Shown: piece after piece, positions 7,541 to 15,000 of the stretch
Layout of the letters: each line of letters opens with the position of its first letter
How positions within the stretch are numbered: the first letter of the stretch is position 1
DNA from: a bacterium
GTDB taxonomy: Bacteria > Bacillota > Bacilli > Lactobacillales > Streptococcaceae
Direction: 5' to 3'
DNA: 24,742 nt
Assembly (NCBI GenBank): GCA_905221065.1
Contig: CAJNBS010000020.1
Coordinates: 1-24,742, forward strand
Translations under genes and position numbers: made by a program
The notes under the pieces: model-generated
The model's input: only the letters and a program-made list of their open reading frames with translations
The model's database searches: none
Told to the model about the DNA's origin: nothing

Positions 7541-8105
<565 letters not shown>

Positions 8106-8170
8106 GAAATGTATAGCTAAGCGAGCCCTACCGCAAACAGTATAGACTTCACCCTTCTACTTTATCGCGC

Positions 8171-8203
8171 TCCTTGCCTGCCTCACGGGACAGGTTTAAA
8201 GGA
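8171..8203 (-). promoter_or_regulatory. PyrR-binding anti-antiterminator loop
   Basis: On the minus strand the sequence is TCCTTTAAACCTGTCCCGTG followed by AGGCAGGCAAGGA. TCCTT pairs with AAGGA and CCTG with CAGG, with the conserved CCCGTGAGG purine-rich loop between. This fits the known PyrR-binding consensus in Bacillales and Lactobacillales pyr leaders. It sits about 65 bp upstream of the terminator stem. Confidence 0.85.
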
Positions 8204-8220
8204 ATATTTAGTTATCAATT

Positions 8221-8902: not shown

Positions 8903-9444
8903 TATTCGTCTCCATCAAATAGTCCTTGTAAGCCAGCAAAAGGACTGTTTTCTTCTTTCTTAACTGCTTGTTGGGCTTGGTATTCTTCCTCTGTCATGAT
9001 TTGCCAGTCATTTCCTGACACAAATCCTTGTCCAGCCTCTTCTTCAGCCGTCAAGATCTTTATAGGGATATTGAGCAGGATATTGTCTGATACGCTCTCA
9101 GCAAGGTCAAGTTCTCCATTTTCGATAGGCAAGACCAAATCATCATCTAAAACTTCTTGATCTAACTGGTTGGTTGCGCCTTCCATGAAAACTTCTGTGA
9201 CTGGATAAGATTCAGCTAACTCAACTGGCTCCATACTACGACTTGAAGCAAGAACAATAGTGTAAGATAGTTGATAATCTAAGAAATACATACGGTCTTC
9301 ATACTGTACTTTCCCAACAGCAAGGATATCTTTCACATCTAAAATTTCTTGATTACGTGCACGCAGGTCTGCGACTAGGTCTAAAGTTTGTTCAAAGTGC
9401 AATCCTTCAGACTGCTTACGAATTTCTTGAATATTTAATTTCAT
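8902..9444 (-). CDS. yceD: YceD/DUF177-family protein
   Basis: The 180-aa protein belongs to the DUF177/YceD family, linked in E. coli and plants to 23S rRNA maturation or accumulation. It starts MKLNIQEIRKQSEG, has a central beta-rich part, and carries the late conserved LPIENGELDLAESVSDNILL segment where family members have their conserved D-L motif. The acidic tail ends GLQGLFDGDE. No signal peptide or membrane helix is seen, so it should be cytosolic. In many bacteria yceD precedes rpmF (ribosomal protein L32); here it is instead coupled by a one-base overlap to nth. The start at 9442-9444 has GGAGG upstream. Family call firm, function inferred. Confidence 0.88.
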   Translation of the reverse strand: MKLNIQEIRKQSEGLHFEQTLDLVADLRARNQEILDVKDILAVGKVQYEDRMYFLDYQLSYTIVLASSRSMEPVELAESYPVTEVFMEGATNQLDQEVLDDDLVLPIENGELDLAESVSDNILLNIPIKILTAEEEAGQGFVSGNDWQIMTEEEYQAQQAVKKEENSPFAGLQGLFDGDE

Positions 9445-9472
9445 ACTTCCTCCATAAAGATTTACTCTCTTG

Positions 9473-9481
9473 ATTATATCA
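9473..9481 (-). promoter_or_regulatory. Extended -10 promoter for yceD-nth
   Basis: On the minus strand TGATATAAT lies 28 bp upstream of the yceD start. No good -35 is seen at 16-18 bp, which is common for extended -10 promoters in streptococci. Confidence 0.6.
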
Positions 9482-9681
9482 TGAAAAGGCTACAAATCAG
9501 CCCAGCAAACTTTGTAATTAAAATTCGAATTTTTAACGTATTTACTATATCTTTTTTGTTCTTAGTGCTATACTATAGGCAAGAATACATGATAGAAAGA
9601 AGGATACCCCTAGGGAAAACAAGGAACTCATTACTAATGATTACCACTCGGATTTTAGAACTTGGAATTGTCAGTTTTCTG

Positions 9682-9710
9682 TTGACAAAATTTCCTTAAA
9701 GGTATAGGAT
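9682..9710 (+). promoter_or_regulatory. Promoter of the ABC-F leader
   Basis: A consensus TTGACA (9682-9687), a 17-bp spacer and TAGGAT (9705-9710) predict a start near 9717, giving a 5' leader of about 300 nt. A second, weaker extended -10 (TGCTATACT, 9566-9574) lies upstream. The rest of 9482-9681 shows nothing else that I can support. Confidence 0.75.
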
Positions 9711-9741
9711 AAGGGTACAAATACTCGGAGGTAAGGGAGAC

Positions 9742-9753
9742 ATGAACAACTAA
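9742..9753 (+). CDS. Three-codon leader peptide (uORF) M-N-N
   Basis: ATG AAC AAC TAA is preceded by a very strong ribosome site (GGAGG at 9727-9731 and AGGGAG at 9734-9739). Such a short ORF is meaningful only because of its context. It sits about 25 nt from the predicted transcript start and directly before a hairpin that hides an antiterminator strand. A ribosome paused on it would cover the 5' side of that hairpin. Very short uORFs are known in leaders of antibiotic-resistance ABC-F genes. No function is expected for the peptide itself; translation of it is the likely sensor. Confidence 0.65.
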   Translation: MNN

Positions 9754-9840
9754 GTCTATCAAATAAAGAACTTTATTTAGTAGATCTTGTTTTTGTCTCT
9801 TTTTGTGTGCTCTTTTTATACTAGATTTTCTAGTATCTTG

Positions 9841-9927
9841 TCCTCATTGAAAATCAAAAAACTAGAAAGCTATGCTCCTCTTGGGTTGGGCAGCTCCAAG
9901 CTAGTTTGACGAGCTTTTCAACGAGGA
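9841..9927 (+). repeat. BOX-like miniature repeat inside the ABC-F leader
   Basis: An 87-bp unit has near-perfect 13-bp terminal inverted repeats, TCCTCATTGAAAA and TTTTCAACGAGGA (12 of 13). The first ~35 bases resemble the outer end of the BOX elements at 11782 and 17911 (TGAAAATCAAA, then ACTAG and AAGCTA), but the centre differs. It is probably a diverged BOX relative or a separate small mobile repeat. As RNA it would fold into one long stem. Confidence 0.55.
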
Positions 9928-9954
9928 TAATAGAGTTTTTGACATAGATTTTGG

Positions 9955-9981
9955 GCTCTACTAGATAAAGTAGAGCTTTTT
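9955..9981 (+). terminator. Attenuator terminator upstream of the ABC-F gene
   Basis: A perfect 8-bp stem, GCTCTACT (9955-9962) / AGTAGAGC (9969-9976), has a 6-base loop and is followed by TTTTT. It ends 36 bp before the ABC-F start codon, so it must be bypassed for expression. Confidence 0.85.
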
Positions 9982-10017
9982 GTTATGCACAATCAACATT
10001 CTAGAAAGGGCAATCAT

Positions 10018-11544
10018 ATGATAAACATCAATCATCTAACCATCACACAAAACAAAGATTTACGAGACCTTATCTCTGACTTAAGCATGACCATCCAAGA
10101 CGGGGAAAAGGTTGCTATTATCGGTGAAGAAGGAAATGGCAAATCAACCTTACTTAAAATTTTAATGGGGGAAGCTTTGCCTGATTTCACTATCAAGGGA
10201 AACATCCAGTCTAACTATCAGTCGCTGGCCTACATTCCTCAAAAACTCCCAGAGTACCTGAAAAATAGAACCCTACACGACTACTTCTTTTTGGATTCTG
10301 CTGATTTAGACTACAGTATTCTTTATCGTTTAGCGGAGGAGTTGCATTTTGATAGCAATCGATTTGCTAGCGACCAAAAGATTGGCAGTCTATCAGGGGG
10401 CGAAGCTTTGAAAATTCAGCTCATCCATGAGTTAGCTAAACCCTTTGAAATCCTATTTTTAGATGAACCTTCAAATGACCTAGACCTAGAGACGGTTGAT
10501 TGGCTAAAAAGTCAGATTCAAAATATTAGACAAACTGTTATTTTCATTTCCCATGATGAAGAATTTCTTTCTCAAACGGCAGACACTATTGTCCACTTGC
10601 GACTGGTCAAGCACCGTAAAGAAGCAGAAACGTTAGTAGAGCATTTAGACTATAATCGATACAGTGAGCAGAGAAAGGTTCATTTTGCCAGACAAAGCCA
10701 GCAAGCTGCTAATGACCAAAGAGCCTATTACAAAACCATGAAAAAGCATCGCCGAGTCAAGCAAAATGTAGAAACTGCACTTCGAGCTACCAAAGACAGT
10801 ACTGCCGGTCGCCTATTGGCTAAAAAGATGAAAACTGTCCTCTCACAAGAAAAGCGCTACGAAAAGGTAGCTCAGTCCATGACTCAAAAGCCACTTGAAG
10901 AAGAACAAATCCAACTTTTCTTTCCAGACATCCAACCATTACCGGCTTCTAAAGTCTTAATCCAACTGGAAAAAGAAAATTTGTCCATCGGCGAGCGAAT
11001 TTTGTCTCAGGGACTACAACTAACTGTCCGTGGCCAAGAAAAAATCGGTATCATCGGCCCAAATGGTATTGGGAAATCAACTCTGTTAGCCAAGTTACAG
11101 CAACTTCTTAATGATAAAAGAGAGATTTCGCTTGGTTTTATGCCACAAGATTACCACAAAAAACTGCAATTGGATTTATCACCAATAGCCTATCTCAGCA
11201 AAACTGGTGAAAAAGAGGAACTGCAGAAAATCCAATCTCACTTAGCTAGTCTCAATTTCAGTTATCCAGAAATGCAGTATCAAATTCGCTCCTTATCTGG
11301 CGGACAACAGGGTAAACTCCTACTTTTGGATTTAGTCTTGTGCAAACCAAACTTTCTCCTCTTAGATGAGCCTACACGAAACTTTTCTCCCACTTCTCAA
11401 CCAGAAATCAGAAAACTCTTTGCAACCTATACAGGCGGTATCATCACTGTTTCGCATGACCGTCGTTTCTTAAAAGAGGTCTGTTCAATCATCTATCGCT
11501 TAACAGAGCACGGTTTGGAGGTCGTTAATTTAGAAGATTTATAA
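10018..11544 (+). CDS. ABC-F family ATPase (possible ribosome-protection protein)
   Basis: A 508-aa soluble protein with two ABC ATPase domains and no membrane segments, the ABC-F layout. Domain 1 has Walker A GEEGNGKST, signature LSGGE and Walker B ILFLDEPSNDLD. Domain 2 has Walker A GPNGIGKST, signature LSGGQ and Walker B LLLDEPTRNFSP. Between them is a charged, helical interdomain linker (about residues 200-290) of the kind that reaches into the ribosome. The start at 10018 is preferred to an in-frame ATG at 9985, because GAAAGGG lies eight bases before it and 9985 follows the terminator U-tract directly. Members protect ribosomes from lincosamides, streptogramin A, pleuromutilins, macrolides or phenicols, or aid translation generally. 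The attenuated leader argues for the antibiotic-responsive kind, but the drug class cannot be read from the sequence. Confidence 0.9.
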   Translation: MININHLTITQNKDLRDLISDLSMTIQDGEKVAIIGEEGNGKSTLLKILMGEALPDFTIKGNIQSNYQSLAYIPQKLPEYLKNRTLHDYFFLDSADLDYSILYRLAEELHFDSNRFASDQKIGSLSGGEALKIQLIHELAKPFEILFLDEPSNDLDLETVDWLKSQIQNIRQTVIFISHDEEFLSQTADTIVHLRLVKHRKEAETLVEHLDYNRYSEQRKVHFARQSQQAANDQRAYYKTMKKHRRVKQNVETALRATKDSTAGRLLAKKMKTVLSQEKRYEKVAQSMTQKPLEEEQIQLFFPDIQPLPASKVLIQLEKENLSIGERILSQGLQLTVRGQEKIGIIGPNGIGKSTLLAKLQQLLNDKREISLGFMPQDYHKKLQLDLSPIAYLSKTGEKEELQKIQSHLASLNFSYPEMQYQIRSLSGGQQGKLLLLDLVLCKPNFLLLDEPTRNFSPTSQPEIRKLFATYTGGIITVSHDRRFLKEVCSIIYRLTEHGLEVVNLEDL

Positions 11545-11781
11545 ACAAAAAGAAACCTAAAGAATTGTTGGAAAAACAATCTTTAAAATCCGACTACAAT
11601 GTTTATTTTTTATAAATTGATTATTATAGATTAAGTTTGGGACAAATTTTATAATATTCACACTCCTGAAGATAATTCTTGGCTTTGAAGCGCTATTTGA
11701 ACATTATAATCAGTGATAAATCTTATGTTCACAGTCAAGTCAATCATTTCTTTCAAAGTCATTCATAAGCAACTCTAAGTA
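11545..11781. other. Intergenic stretch, possible transposase scraps
   Basis: No gene is seen. A weak stem (AAAGAaTTGTT / AACAAtCTTT, about 11558-11585) follows the ABC-F stop but has no good T-tract. On the minus strand, short open pieces such as VNIRFITDYNVQIALQSQ and, in another frame, YLQECEYYKICPKLNL read like fragments of a decayed transposase, broken by frameshifts. I cannot assign them to a family. The repeat and terminator that follow are listed separately. Confidence 0.35.
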
Positions 11782-11895
11782 ATACTCAATGAAAATCAAA
11801 GAGCAAACTAGGAAGCTAGCCGCAGGTTGCTCAAAGCACTGCTTTGAGGTTGTGGATGAAGCTGACGTAGTTTTAAGAGATTTTCGAAGAGTATA
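11782..11895 (-). repeat. BOX element, A-C type without boxB
   Basis: About 114 bp run from ATACTCAATGAAAATCAAAG to the end GATTTTCGAAGAGTAT. They match the BOX element at 17911-18060 except that the central boxB module is missing. In BOX nomenclature boxA lies at the right end here (minus orientation). BOX elements are non-autonomous repeats with inverted ends typical of S. pneumoniae and close relatives. Confidence 0.9.
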
Positions 11896-11923
11896 ACCAG
11901 ATAAAAACTCACTTCAAAATAGC

Positions 11924-11962
11924 AAAAAAACGAGCACTTCCTCTTTTGGAAATGCTCGTTTT
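11924..11962 (-). terminator. Bidirectional terminator between ABC-F and pht
   Basis: The stem AACGAGCACTTCC (11929-11941) / GGAAATGCTCGTT (11948-11960) has one mismatch. On the minus strand it is followed by a run of seven T (11924-11930), so it mainly ends pht transcription. On the plus strand the stem is followed by TTTTC and could also stop reading from the ABC-F gene. Confidence 0.85.
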
Positions 11963-12050
11963 CTTATCTTGCCATGTTTTATAATTACAATGAGAAATAG
12001 GAAACAGCCTTGAATGGGAAAATCTCCTAGATCTCCGACTACCAACTTTT

Positions 12051-15000
12051 TTACTCTACTGGTTTTTCTTGATTTCCAGTACTTGTTGTGGATTCTGTTG
12101 TTTCCTTTTCTGAAGCTAGTTCAGCAGGTTTAGAATCTGTTGCCTTGCTCGGTTTGTTTTCCTCACTTGCAGTTTCACTGTTAGATTCTGTAGCTGCGTT
12201 AGGTTGGTTCTCAGCACTGGTCTTATCACCATTTGCCTCGGCATTTGTTGCTGGACTTGCTTCTTCACTCGCACTTGATTTTGACTTGATTTCTTGATTC
12301 AAGACCAGAATAGCTTTTGTCAATTCAAGTAAAGCAGCCTTATCTTTACTCTTAGCAGAAAGTTGATCTAGTAGAGCATCCACCTTGTCAAAGTCCGCAT
12401 CAGAACCCTTATTGTTTTCTAAGTAAGCGTGGAGTGACATGAGGATATCGTAAAGTTTTTGATAGAGAACAAGTGTCTGAGGATCTTGCTCAGCATTTTC
12501 CTTCTCTTGTTGAAGGGCGCTGGCAATACGAGTCAAGACGTCTTTCACCTGACTATTTACTTCATCCAAGTCTGCATCAGCCTTGTTTGTGGCAGCTTTG
12601 AGATTTTCTACTTCTTCTGCCAAGGATTGTCTGATTCCTTCTTCTTGGATTTGTTCCAAGAGTTGATTTGCCTTGCTCAAAAGACTTTCTACTTGTTCCT
12701 TGCTGACATGATTGACATGCTCTTCAGGCATAAAGTCTCCGTACAATTCTTTCAAGAAGCCATAAATAGCTGTCTTGGCAGTTTGGTTATCTACTTTTTC
12801 AGTATCTAGAACTGTCTGAGTCGATTTAGCAGTAGTTGGCTGAGCTTTCAACGCTTCTTCCACTTCTTGTTTTACCTGATAGATGTTTGGGAATAATTTG
12901 TTCAATTCTGCTGCCTTAAGGAAGGATTGAGATTGATACAAGGTCCAAGTCAACTGAGCTACTTTATTACGAAGTTCATCACTCAAACGACCGTCATTTA
13001 CGTGTTCATAGAAATACTTGATGTATTCAACTGTTGTAACACCTGTTCGATCATTAAAGTCTTGAAGAGCTTGAAGTTGTGATTCAACCGCTGCTAAACC
13101 AGCCTCATCTTTTGCCAACTTAGCTTCTTGAAGTCGAACGAGAAGGTCTTTCTTAGGAAGCCCATAAGAGTCTGTATCCAGTGTGTTGATTTTATCAATC
13201 AAGGCCTGATATTTCTTATCTAAAGCACTTGTTTTAACAGGCTTGACACTTTCATCAATATGGATATATTGCTTATCAAAGAGTTCAAGTGTTGCAAGAT
13301 AACCCGCTGTAGAGTTAGTTGCCAGTTTCTTCATGTTTTCAGTAAACTGACCTAAGGCTAACTCAATCTGTCTTTGTTCGATAGGCTTGTCTTTATAGAT
13401 GCTTCTGCTATCAGATAGAAGTTGGTCTACTTTTGCCAAGACCGCCTTCTCATCAAAAGCCCCAGGCTGGTAGTTGGATTGGAGAGCTGGAATCTTGTTT
13501 TTCAAAGCCACTTCATAGCCCTTGGTTTGAACCTTGATATAGTGATTGTGGTCGCCATGAGGAATCACAAAACTACCATTTTCTACCTGTAAGCTATACG
13601 GAGACACGCCATCTCGCAAAGCAGTTGTATAAAGTTCATTTAGGAAATCAAGTTCTGGATTTCCGGTTTGGAGTGGAAGTCGAACATGTTCCTTACGAAC
13701 AGCATATGGGTGGATATGAGTTGGATCGTAGGCTTGGTCTGGATTTCCAAAGACGAAGAATCCATTTGAAATTCTAATAGCTTCAAGTGGAACCCCATAG
13801 GTCTTAGAAATATAAGCAATTTTTTCTTCATCGCTAGCATCTCTTGAGAAAGACTCTACCGTTTTAGCAAGAGGTTTTACAGGCTCTGCATCATGATGTG
13901 TTTTCAAATGATCCTGCGCTGCCTTGATTTGTTCAGCTGTCAAATCCTTCTTGAAGAAGTAATGATTGTGATCGCCGTGACTCATTACAAACCCTTGCTC
14001 ATCCTCACTAATGACACGATTGGCATCAAAACCGTGATCATGATGGTGTCCATGATGATCTTCGTCGTGATCGTCATCATGAGCTGGACTTGGTGTTGTT
14101 GTATTTGCCCCTTTCAAGTGATCTTGCGCTGCCTTGATTTGGTCAGCTGTCAAATCCTTCTTGAAGAAGTAATGATTGTGATCCCCGTGACTCATGATAA
14201 AGCCTGAACTATCTTCAGCAATAATCCGATTGGCATCAAAGCCGTGTCCATCTTCTTCATGTTCCTCATGTGAGACACCAGGATTGGCAGGAAGAGATGG
14301 TGAAGGTGTGGTCAGACCATTATTTGGAAGAGTCGGCTGCACAATTGGGTTCGATTTGGGAATGTAATGGAAATGGTCACCATGTCTGACGATATAAGCT
14401 GTAGCTGTTTCTTCAACAATATCTTTTGGATTAAAGATATAACCATCAGATGTTGCAGAAATAGCCTTATTTGTTGTCAATGAAGCATGATTCACTGTAG
14501 ATGGATTACTTGAAAGACTTCCTAGACTAGACGCTACTTCATGAGGTTTTTCATTTGTAGAGACCGTAGAACCAGTTCCACCGATAGGCACCATTCTGGC
14601 AATCTTTTCTTCTAAAGGTGAGAGTTTACTGTAAGGAATAAAGTGGTAATGGTCGCCATGCGGAATCGCAACTCCATTTGCCGTACGGCTGATAATCTTA
14701 GCAGGGTCAAAAACAAGACCGTCTGATTCACTGTAACGTTGGTCACTAGGTGAATCGTAGAGTTCTTTCAAAAGACTTTGAAGACTTTCAGCTTTATCTG
14801 CTGGCTCGCTAGTTGAGCCTTGTGCTACAGATTGCGTGTTATTGTCACTAGCTGCTGAAGAATAACTTAACTGACTCGGTTGCGTATTTTTCCCAGCTAG
14901 ATGAGCTTTTGCTGCTGCTAATTCACTAGCAGACAAATCACCTTTTGGAATATAGTGATAGTGACCTCCGTGAGGAACGATATAAGCATCACCCGTATCT

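Follow-up and report, generated by a model that had tools for sequence, protein, structure and literature searches.

Several described systems are close to the locus analysed here. In Bacillus subtilis, the vmlR leader carries an upstream open reading frame (uORF) encoding M-I-N within the hairpin SL-1, followed by the pause hairpin SL-2, the terminator SL-3 and SL-4, and the uORF variants M-I-N, M-D-N, M-D-K and M-R-K respond to lincomycin (PMC9226507). For C. difficile cplR, vmlR2 and lsaA, the uORF consensus before the ABC-F gene was given as M-R-[I/M], M-K-[L/Q] and M-A-G-N (PMC10201436). The streptococcal ABC-F gene msrD is subject to transcription attenuation by ribosome stalling on the leader peptide MsrDL (M-Y-L-I-F-M; PMC10314930), and in Listeria a lincomycin attenuator precedes the ABC-F gene lmo0919 (VgaL; PMC5418344).

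The window, i.e. the complete stretch of 24,742 nt of Streptococcaceae DNA which was analysed (contig CAJNBS010000020.1), contains an ABC-F gene with a leader which is, with high probability, a ribosome-sensing transcription attenuator controlling this gene in cis. Among the leaders of ARE ABC-F genes named in the original prediction, the likeness to that of vmlR holds in detail for the layout of uORF, SL-1 and terminator. Like vmlR, the locus has a three-codon uORF in SL-1, a mutually exclusive antiterminator, an intrinsic terminator and a chromosomal ABC-F gene, and the uORF peptides M-I-N, M-D-N and M-D-K are also found in Streptococcus leaders. It differs in that another ABC-F gene is concerned. 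An SL-4 sequestering the Shine-Dalgarno (SD) sequence, induction and NusG pausing are features described for vmlR. A hairpin with the uORF and a terminator before the ABC-F gene are shared with cplR, but cplR, vmlR2 and lsaA are from other genera and have other uORF consensus sequences (PMC10201436, in whose main text the word “Streptococcus” does not occur). With msrD, the locus would share ribosome-stalling transcription attenuation of a streptococcal ABC-F gene, but msrD belongs to a mobile macrolide-resistance operon and is regulated by a six-residue, macrolide-specific arrest peptide (PMC10314930). The lmo0919 attenuator is likened here for its position before an ABC-F gene (PMC5418344). 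Finally, the 5' part of the leader is, according to its Rfam score (Table 1), the same RNA element as RF02436 and pneumococcal F43, but these are annotated as an sRNA gene.

While the kind of leader is known (vmlR/cplR type), neither the streptococcal family and how widely it is spread nor such a reinterpretation of SpF43 was encountered in the literature searched. In the available parts of that literature, this gene was nowhere described as having a short-uORF leader, Dar et al. 2016 and the pneumococcal supplementary tables being outside its scope. According to a review, such regulation proved to be widespread in Gram-positive bacteria when the human oral microbiome was analysed by Term-seq, and for this reason a prior sighting of the locus is possible (PMC5418344). 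Our reading would link a so far unexplained “sRNA” of pneumococci to a core ABC-F gene which has not been studied, both as parts of a single testable circuit spread through Streptococcus including S. pneumoniae and oral commensals.

Parts of the leader in the window

Table 1. Coordinates of the features of the locus (positions in the window)
Feature	Position	Strand	Basis or remark
Promoter, sigma-70-type	9682..9710	+	TTGACA 9682-9687, TAGGAT 9705-9710, spacer 17 bp; 10/12 consensus matches; kept in 19 aligned relatives
Rfam RF02436 SpF43_sRNA match, read as 5' part of the leader	9717..9814	+	covariance-model score 110.2 bits, gathering cut-off 70
Shine-Dalgarno site GGAGG of the uORF	9727..9731	+	read directly
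SL-1, putative anti-antiterminator hairpin around the uORF	9733..9803	+	tip 9754-9785; -23.0 kcal/mol, z -4.40; 0/200 shuffles equally stable
uORF M-N-N-stop, ATG AAC AAC TAA	9742..9753	+	read directly; conserved in relatives
Antiterminator strand	9770..9784	+	pairs with 9957-9971, 15 positions, one G-U
U-rich GUGUGCUC box 3' of SL-1	9800..9812	+	candidate pause or weak first terminator
Inserted small repeat element, linker	9838..9936 (approximate)	+	absent from short-spaced relatives
Intrinsic terminator	9954..9981	+	hairpin 9954-9977, -13.0 kcal/mol, z -4.03, 1/200 shuffles equally stable; T run 9977-9981; 5' part 9957-9971 is the antiterminator partner
ABC-F protein, 508 aa, regulated gene	10018..11544	+	two ABC domains, sequence likeness

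Upon direct reading, the uORF and its SD site are present, and the predicted coordinates hold. The promoter, predicted to be of consensus type, is present and good but not perfect. A scan of positions 9300-12200 at the level of 10/12 matches yielded 7 promoter sites compared with 7.1 in shuffled sequences; hence, the promoter match alone carries little weight. In an alignment of the 19 relatives without the linker insertion, TTGACA and a -10-like box are conserved. Transcription is predicted to start near 9717, the position at which the SpF43 match also begins.

The hairpin originally drawn at 9754-9785 is real, but it is just the tip of the longer SL-1. The uORF lies within the 5' arm of SL-1, the stop codon being placed in an internal loop. 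SL-1 is followed by UUUUU, and the U-rich GUGUGC box at its 3' side may be a pause site or a weak first terminator. The terminator, predicted at 9955-9981, was recovered with a hairpin starting one position earlier, and it ends 36 bp before ATG 10018. By inspection, the antiterminator strand and the terminator arm are complementary over consecutive positions as predicted (window pair CTTTATTTAGT with ACTAGATAAAG), and the mutual exclusion of the three stems is seen in the predicted structures of the window.

The following mechanism is proposed. RNA synthesis would begin near 9717, and when ribosomes translate the uORF and depart, SL-1 would lock the antiterminator strand; the terminator would then fold and transcription would stop before the ABC-F gene. 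A ribosome held on the uORF, whether at the start codon or at the final codon or stop, would keep SL-1 open by its footprint. The free strand 9770-9784 would pair with 9957-9971, the terminator would not form and the ABC-F gene would be transcribed. The stall would take place on the uORF, the AUG, the Asn codons and the stop being candidate sites, and a pause may occur at the GUGUGC box. By analogy to vmlR, inhibitors of the peptidyl-transferase centre (lincosamides, pleuromutilins, streptogramin A) are the most likely inducers, and the ABC-F protein would relieve the stress which is sensed.

The inserted repeat element of the linker is missing in those 19 of 57 related leaders which have a short spacing. 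The distance from the uORF start to the gene is 185-192 nt in these 19 close relatives, 279-295 nt in 32, 338-341 nt in three and 384-385 nt in three; in the window it is 276 nt. For L005 and L022, the M-K-N uORF served as the point of reference. In the predicted structures of the window the insertion folds on itself, and the antiterminator pairing is still possible. Full-length relatives of the insertion at the same site were found in two of the four genomes searched, and all four contain stretches of 28-35 nt from its left part at other places, too. Judged by eye, the region 11795-11897 downstream of the ABC-F gene resembles another such repeat; both repeats are presumably RUP-like.

Conservation of the uORF and position of SpF43

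In total, 136 leaders were read: the window, 57 of 60 close streptococcal loci (L024, L025 and L039 had too little upstream sequence), 20 leaders from weaker or divergent Rfam matches, 44 of 45 from protein matches (L120 lies at a contig edge) and 14 from a search of the order and the genus, of which 11 are outside Streptococcus. The closest relatives of the protein are from named mitis-group streptococci. A short uORF behind an SD site was found in 130 of the 136 leaders, with 18 starts set by hand. It is present in 124 of the 125 Streptococcus leaders, the exception being L140, where the 700 bases read contained no recognisable leader, and in 6 of the 11 leaders of other genera, where it encodes M-Y-T-I or M-D-T-I.

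The 130 uORFs start with ATG (122), TTG (6) or GTG (2), and TAA is the stop codon in 129 of them. Among the 110 three-codon uORFs, 103 end with Asn-stop (AAC 90, AAT 13), while codon 2 is variable. Other uORFs have four, five (M-D-N-N-K-like), seven (M-Y-K-K-S-I-A) or, in L148, fourteen codons; the latter leader is without a convincing antiterminator. The exact sequence ATGAACAACTAA occurs in 54 of the 57 close loci; L030 encodes the same peptide as the window using the other Asn codon, and L005 and L022 encode M-K-N. The natural set comprising M-N-N, M-K-N, M-I-N, M-D-N, M-R-N, M-Y-N and M-D-K plus the forms of four, five and seven codons is a ready panel for studying by what means ribosome inhibitors are sensed through very short peptides or through initiation as such.

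Two observations on small ORFs were made in addition. In L137 and L143, an extra small ORF separates the terminator region from the ABC-F gene, and a similar one is found in L140. In L170 and L171, from other families of the order, possible three-codon uORFs (M-K-L, M-R-I) were noticed by eye, which recall the vmlR2 and cplR consensus; these have no strong SD and were not counted.

In S. pneumoniae TIGR4, F43 is a Northern-confirmed RNA of 99 nt (1216148-1216246) between SP1281 and SP1282, all being codirectional (Mann et al., PMC3395615), and a study from 2025 equates the putative sRNA M52 with F43/Spd_sr63 (PMC12323649). The available parts of both papers make no mention of a uORF or of attenuation of this gene. 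SpF43 matches with E ≤ 0.001 were obtained in 83 of 147 Streptococcus genomes, 61 of which exceed the cut-off. In 59 of these 61 genomes the match is located ≤ 450 nt upstream of the ABC-F gene on the same strand; in the other two, match and gene are on separate contigs. Under the attenuator reading, SpF43 would then be mainly the stable 5' part of a cis-acting leader, which would offer a reason for its strong sequence conservation.

Alternatively, SpF43 could be chiefly a trans-acting small RNA which neighbours the ABC-F gene incidentally. Such a role would suit the Northern-confirmed 99-nt RNA, the annotation as sRNA, including that in Rfam, and the 3' end of the match at 9814, which is at the U-rich box and away from the terminator at 9981. 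Nevertheless, we regard it as very improbable, given the tie to the ABC-F gene in 59 of 61 genomes, the preservation of the uORF with synonymous AAC/AAT codons and the covariation with a terminator arm beyond the sRNA (see below). Genomic position and covariation argue for a cis-acting rather than a trans-acting SpF43. For a spontaneous nonencapsulated pneumococcal variant which also has a change in cpsE, a SNP was listed upstream of SP_1282 at a distance of 61 bp (PMC4243769); its place in the leader depends on the strand and start codon used.

Pairing between leader and terminator arm

Leaders in which uORF and terminator are both present numbered 128; at 85%, they were grouped into 36 clusters. 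A duplex-energy test of the terminator arm against the leader was weak, because G+C-rich arms pair indiscriminately: 11 of the 36 clusters reached p ≤ 0.05, a single one of the 36 had its cognate arm as the best, and the window had p = 0.0598. An ungapped 11-mer test and a strand permutation were the second and third attempts after this test. In the 11-mer test, which used the best match between terminator arm and leader, 24 of the 36 clusters surpassed shuffled leaders at p ≤ 0.05 (window, p = 0.0125), and the p-value combined after Fisher was 1.7e-25 for clusters which are non-independent.

For the covariation analysis, the 11-mer registers were set by hand for 26 of the 36 clusters, with a one-base slip in L104. 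The clusters L121, L130, L133, L139, L144, L147, L148, L151, L164 and L166 were omitted because they are off the shared register, some appearing shifted or bulged by eye; therefore, the paired fraction is flattered. In the 26 clusters, 268 of 286 positions are paired; permuted strands averaged 230.4 (sd 4.2) and did not exceed 246. None of 10,000 strand permutations, a procedure which ignores relatedness, reached 268. Changes on both sides occurred at 10 of the 11 positions; examples are the pairs CTTTATCAAGT with ACTTGATAAAG in L112 and CCATATCAGGT with ACCTGATATGG in L150.

The covariation check in leaders of relatives, suggested with the original prediction, revealed compensatory changes in the antiterminator. 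Across clusters, the outer limits of SL-1 were placed inconsistently. Co-evolution of the antiterminator and the terminator arm is, at the level of sequence, the mark expected of selection on a cis switch. Sequence and comparison establish the parts, their mutual exclusion and their co-evolution. A coincidence in AT-rich DNA, or plain terminators without switching, is hardly credible: the tests for single leaders are modest, as the two p-values of the window illustrate, but the combined tests, the covariation and the genus-wide conservation of uORF and architecture contradict it.

Another arrangement concerns the U-rich GUGUGC-like box after SL-1, which is present in 31 of 36 clusters compared with 16.8 expected, using a pattern picked post hoc. 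SL-1 and its U5 tract might form the main terminator or pause, being opened by translation of the uORF and not by stalling, with the distal terminator as a back-up. The stability of SL-1, the UUUUU behind it, the end of SpF43 at 9814 and the frequency of the box are in line with this. It leaves the covariation between 9770-9784 and the distal arm unexplained, however, and the automatic scan placed the outer pairs of SL-1 and the U tract inconsistently across clusters, so that these placements were not used. We consider this arrangement unlikely.

Folding was examined for the attenuator in 28 leaders, i.e. the 26 clusters sharing the register and two more mitis-group leaders. Co-transcriptional folding used the transcript before the 3' arm of the terminator, and the ribosome was represented by a block of 31 nt. 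An antiterminator probability ≥ 0.5 was predicted for none of the 28 leaders when unblocked, for 27 when the AUG was blocked and likewise for 27 with a block on the last codon. Control blocks upstream and in the linker gave 0/28 and 2/28, compared with 24/28 for the AUG in the same run, in which a longer 5' flank was used. In equilibrium folding with the full terminator, the antiterminator probability in the window increased from 0.00 to 0.99 upon blocking. At equilibrium, only 6 of 28 leaders, including three from the cluster of the window, switched at either stall position; therefore, the timing of transcription must matter in the other leaders.

The ABC-F protein and the signal

Two PF00005 stretches were found in the protein. 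Sequence matches to solved structures are led by ABC-F chains, namely YheS (best), the ribosome-protection chain of 7p48, ExpZ/VmlR (6ha8, 127 bits) and Lmo0919; 6ha8 is taken to be VmlR. Among the best 25 of 194 families, no curated NCBIfam cut-off was reached (best NF000355, 301.1 vs 380), and four orthologues were likewise below the cut-off (284.6-311). The AlphaFold model, which is of low confidence (mean pLDDT 65.8), has two linker helices (217-258, 262-289) and a short turn. Deriving the protein class from this model was dropped, the model being too weak. Searches for the protein gave hits with E ≤ 1e-100 in 126 of 147 Streptococcus genomes; across the order, 31 of 148 genomes, representing 7 of 48 genera, had a hit with E ≤ 1e-60.

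Concerning the antibiotic-inducible attenuator originally proposed, the attenuator is supported, with its parts found genus-wide and with compensatory changes, but the protein stays below the cut-offs of the ribosome-protection families listed. It is the regulation, and not the protein, which makes a “resistance factor” plausible. With the same attenuator, the ABC-F protein could instead be a housekeeping or rescue factor responding to translation stress in general, such as an initiation block, starvation or difficult messages. The genomic distribution is that of a core and not of an acquired gene, and the NCBIfam scores, YheS as the best match among solved structures and the low-confidence model with two linker helices and a short turn point in the same direction. 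Conversely, the short-uORF leaders which have been tested functionally precede resistance ABC-F genes (PMC9226507, PMC10201436), and vmlR is chromosomal, too. Altogether, a housekeeping or rescue function has a substantial chance, albeit clearly below even.

More tentatively, and with a rather low expectation of being correct, M-x-Asn-stop may be an old, general sensor of ribosomes held up as translation begins, common to vmlR of Bacillus and the core ABC-F gene of streptococci. In this proposal, SpF43 would be the short product of a second, earlier decision point (SL-1/U5-GUGUGC, a pause or terminator opened by translation) in tandem with the distal terminator. If true, a genus-wide, non-acquired response of streptococci to translation stress would have been filed as an sRNA.

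Regarding the start of the ABC-F gene, an in-frame ATG at 9985 would result in an ORF of 519 aa, the length of many database homologues. ATG 10018 has a better-placed AGAAAGG site, and ATG 9985 follows directly after the terminator. Elsewhere in the window, a PyrR binding site (RF00515, 61.5 bits, cut-off 54) was detected at 8074-8206 on the minus strand, immediately before a pyrR-like ORF at 7541-8062.
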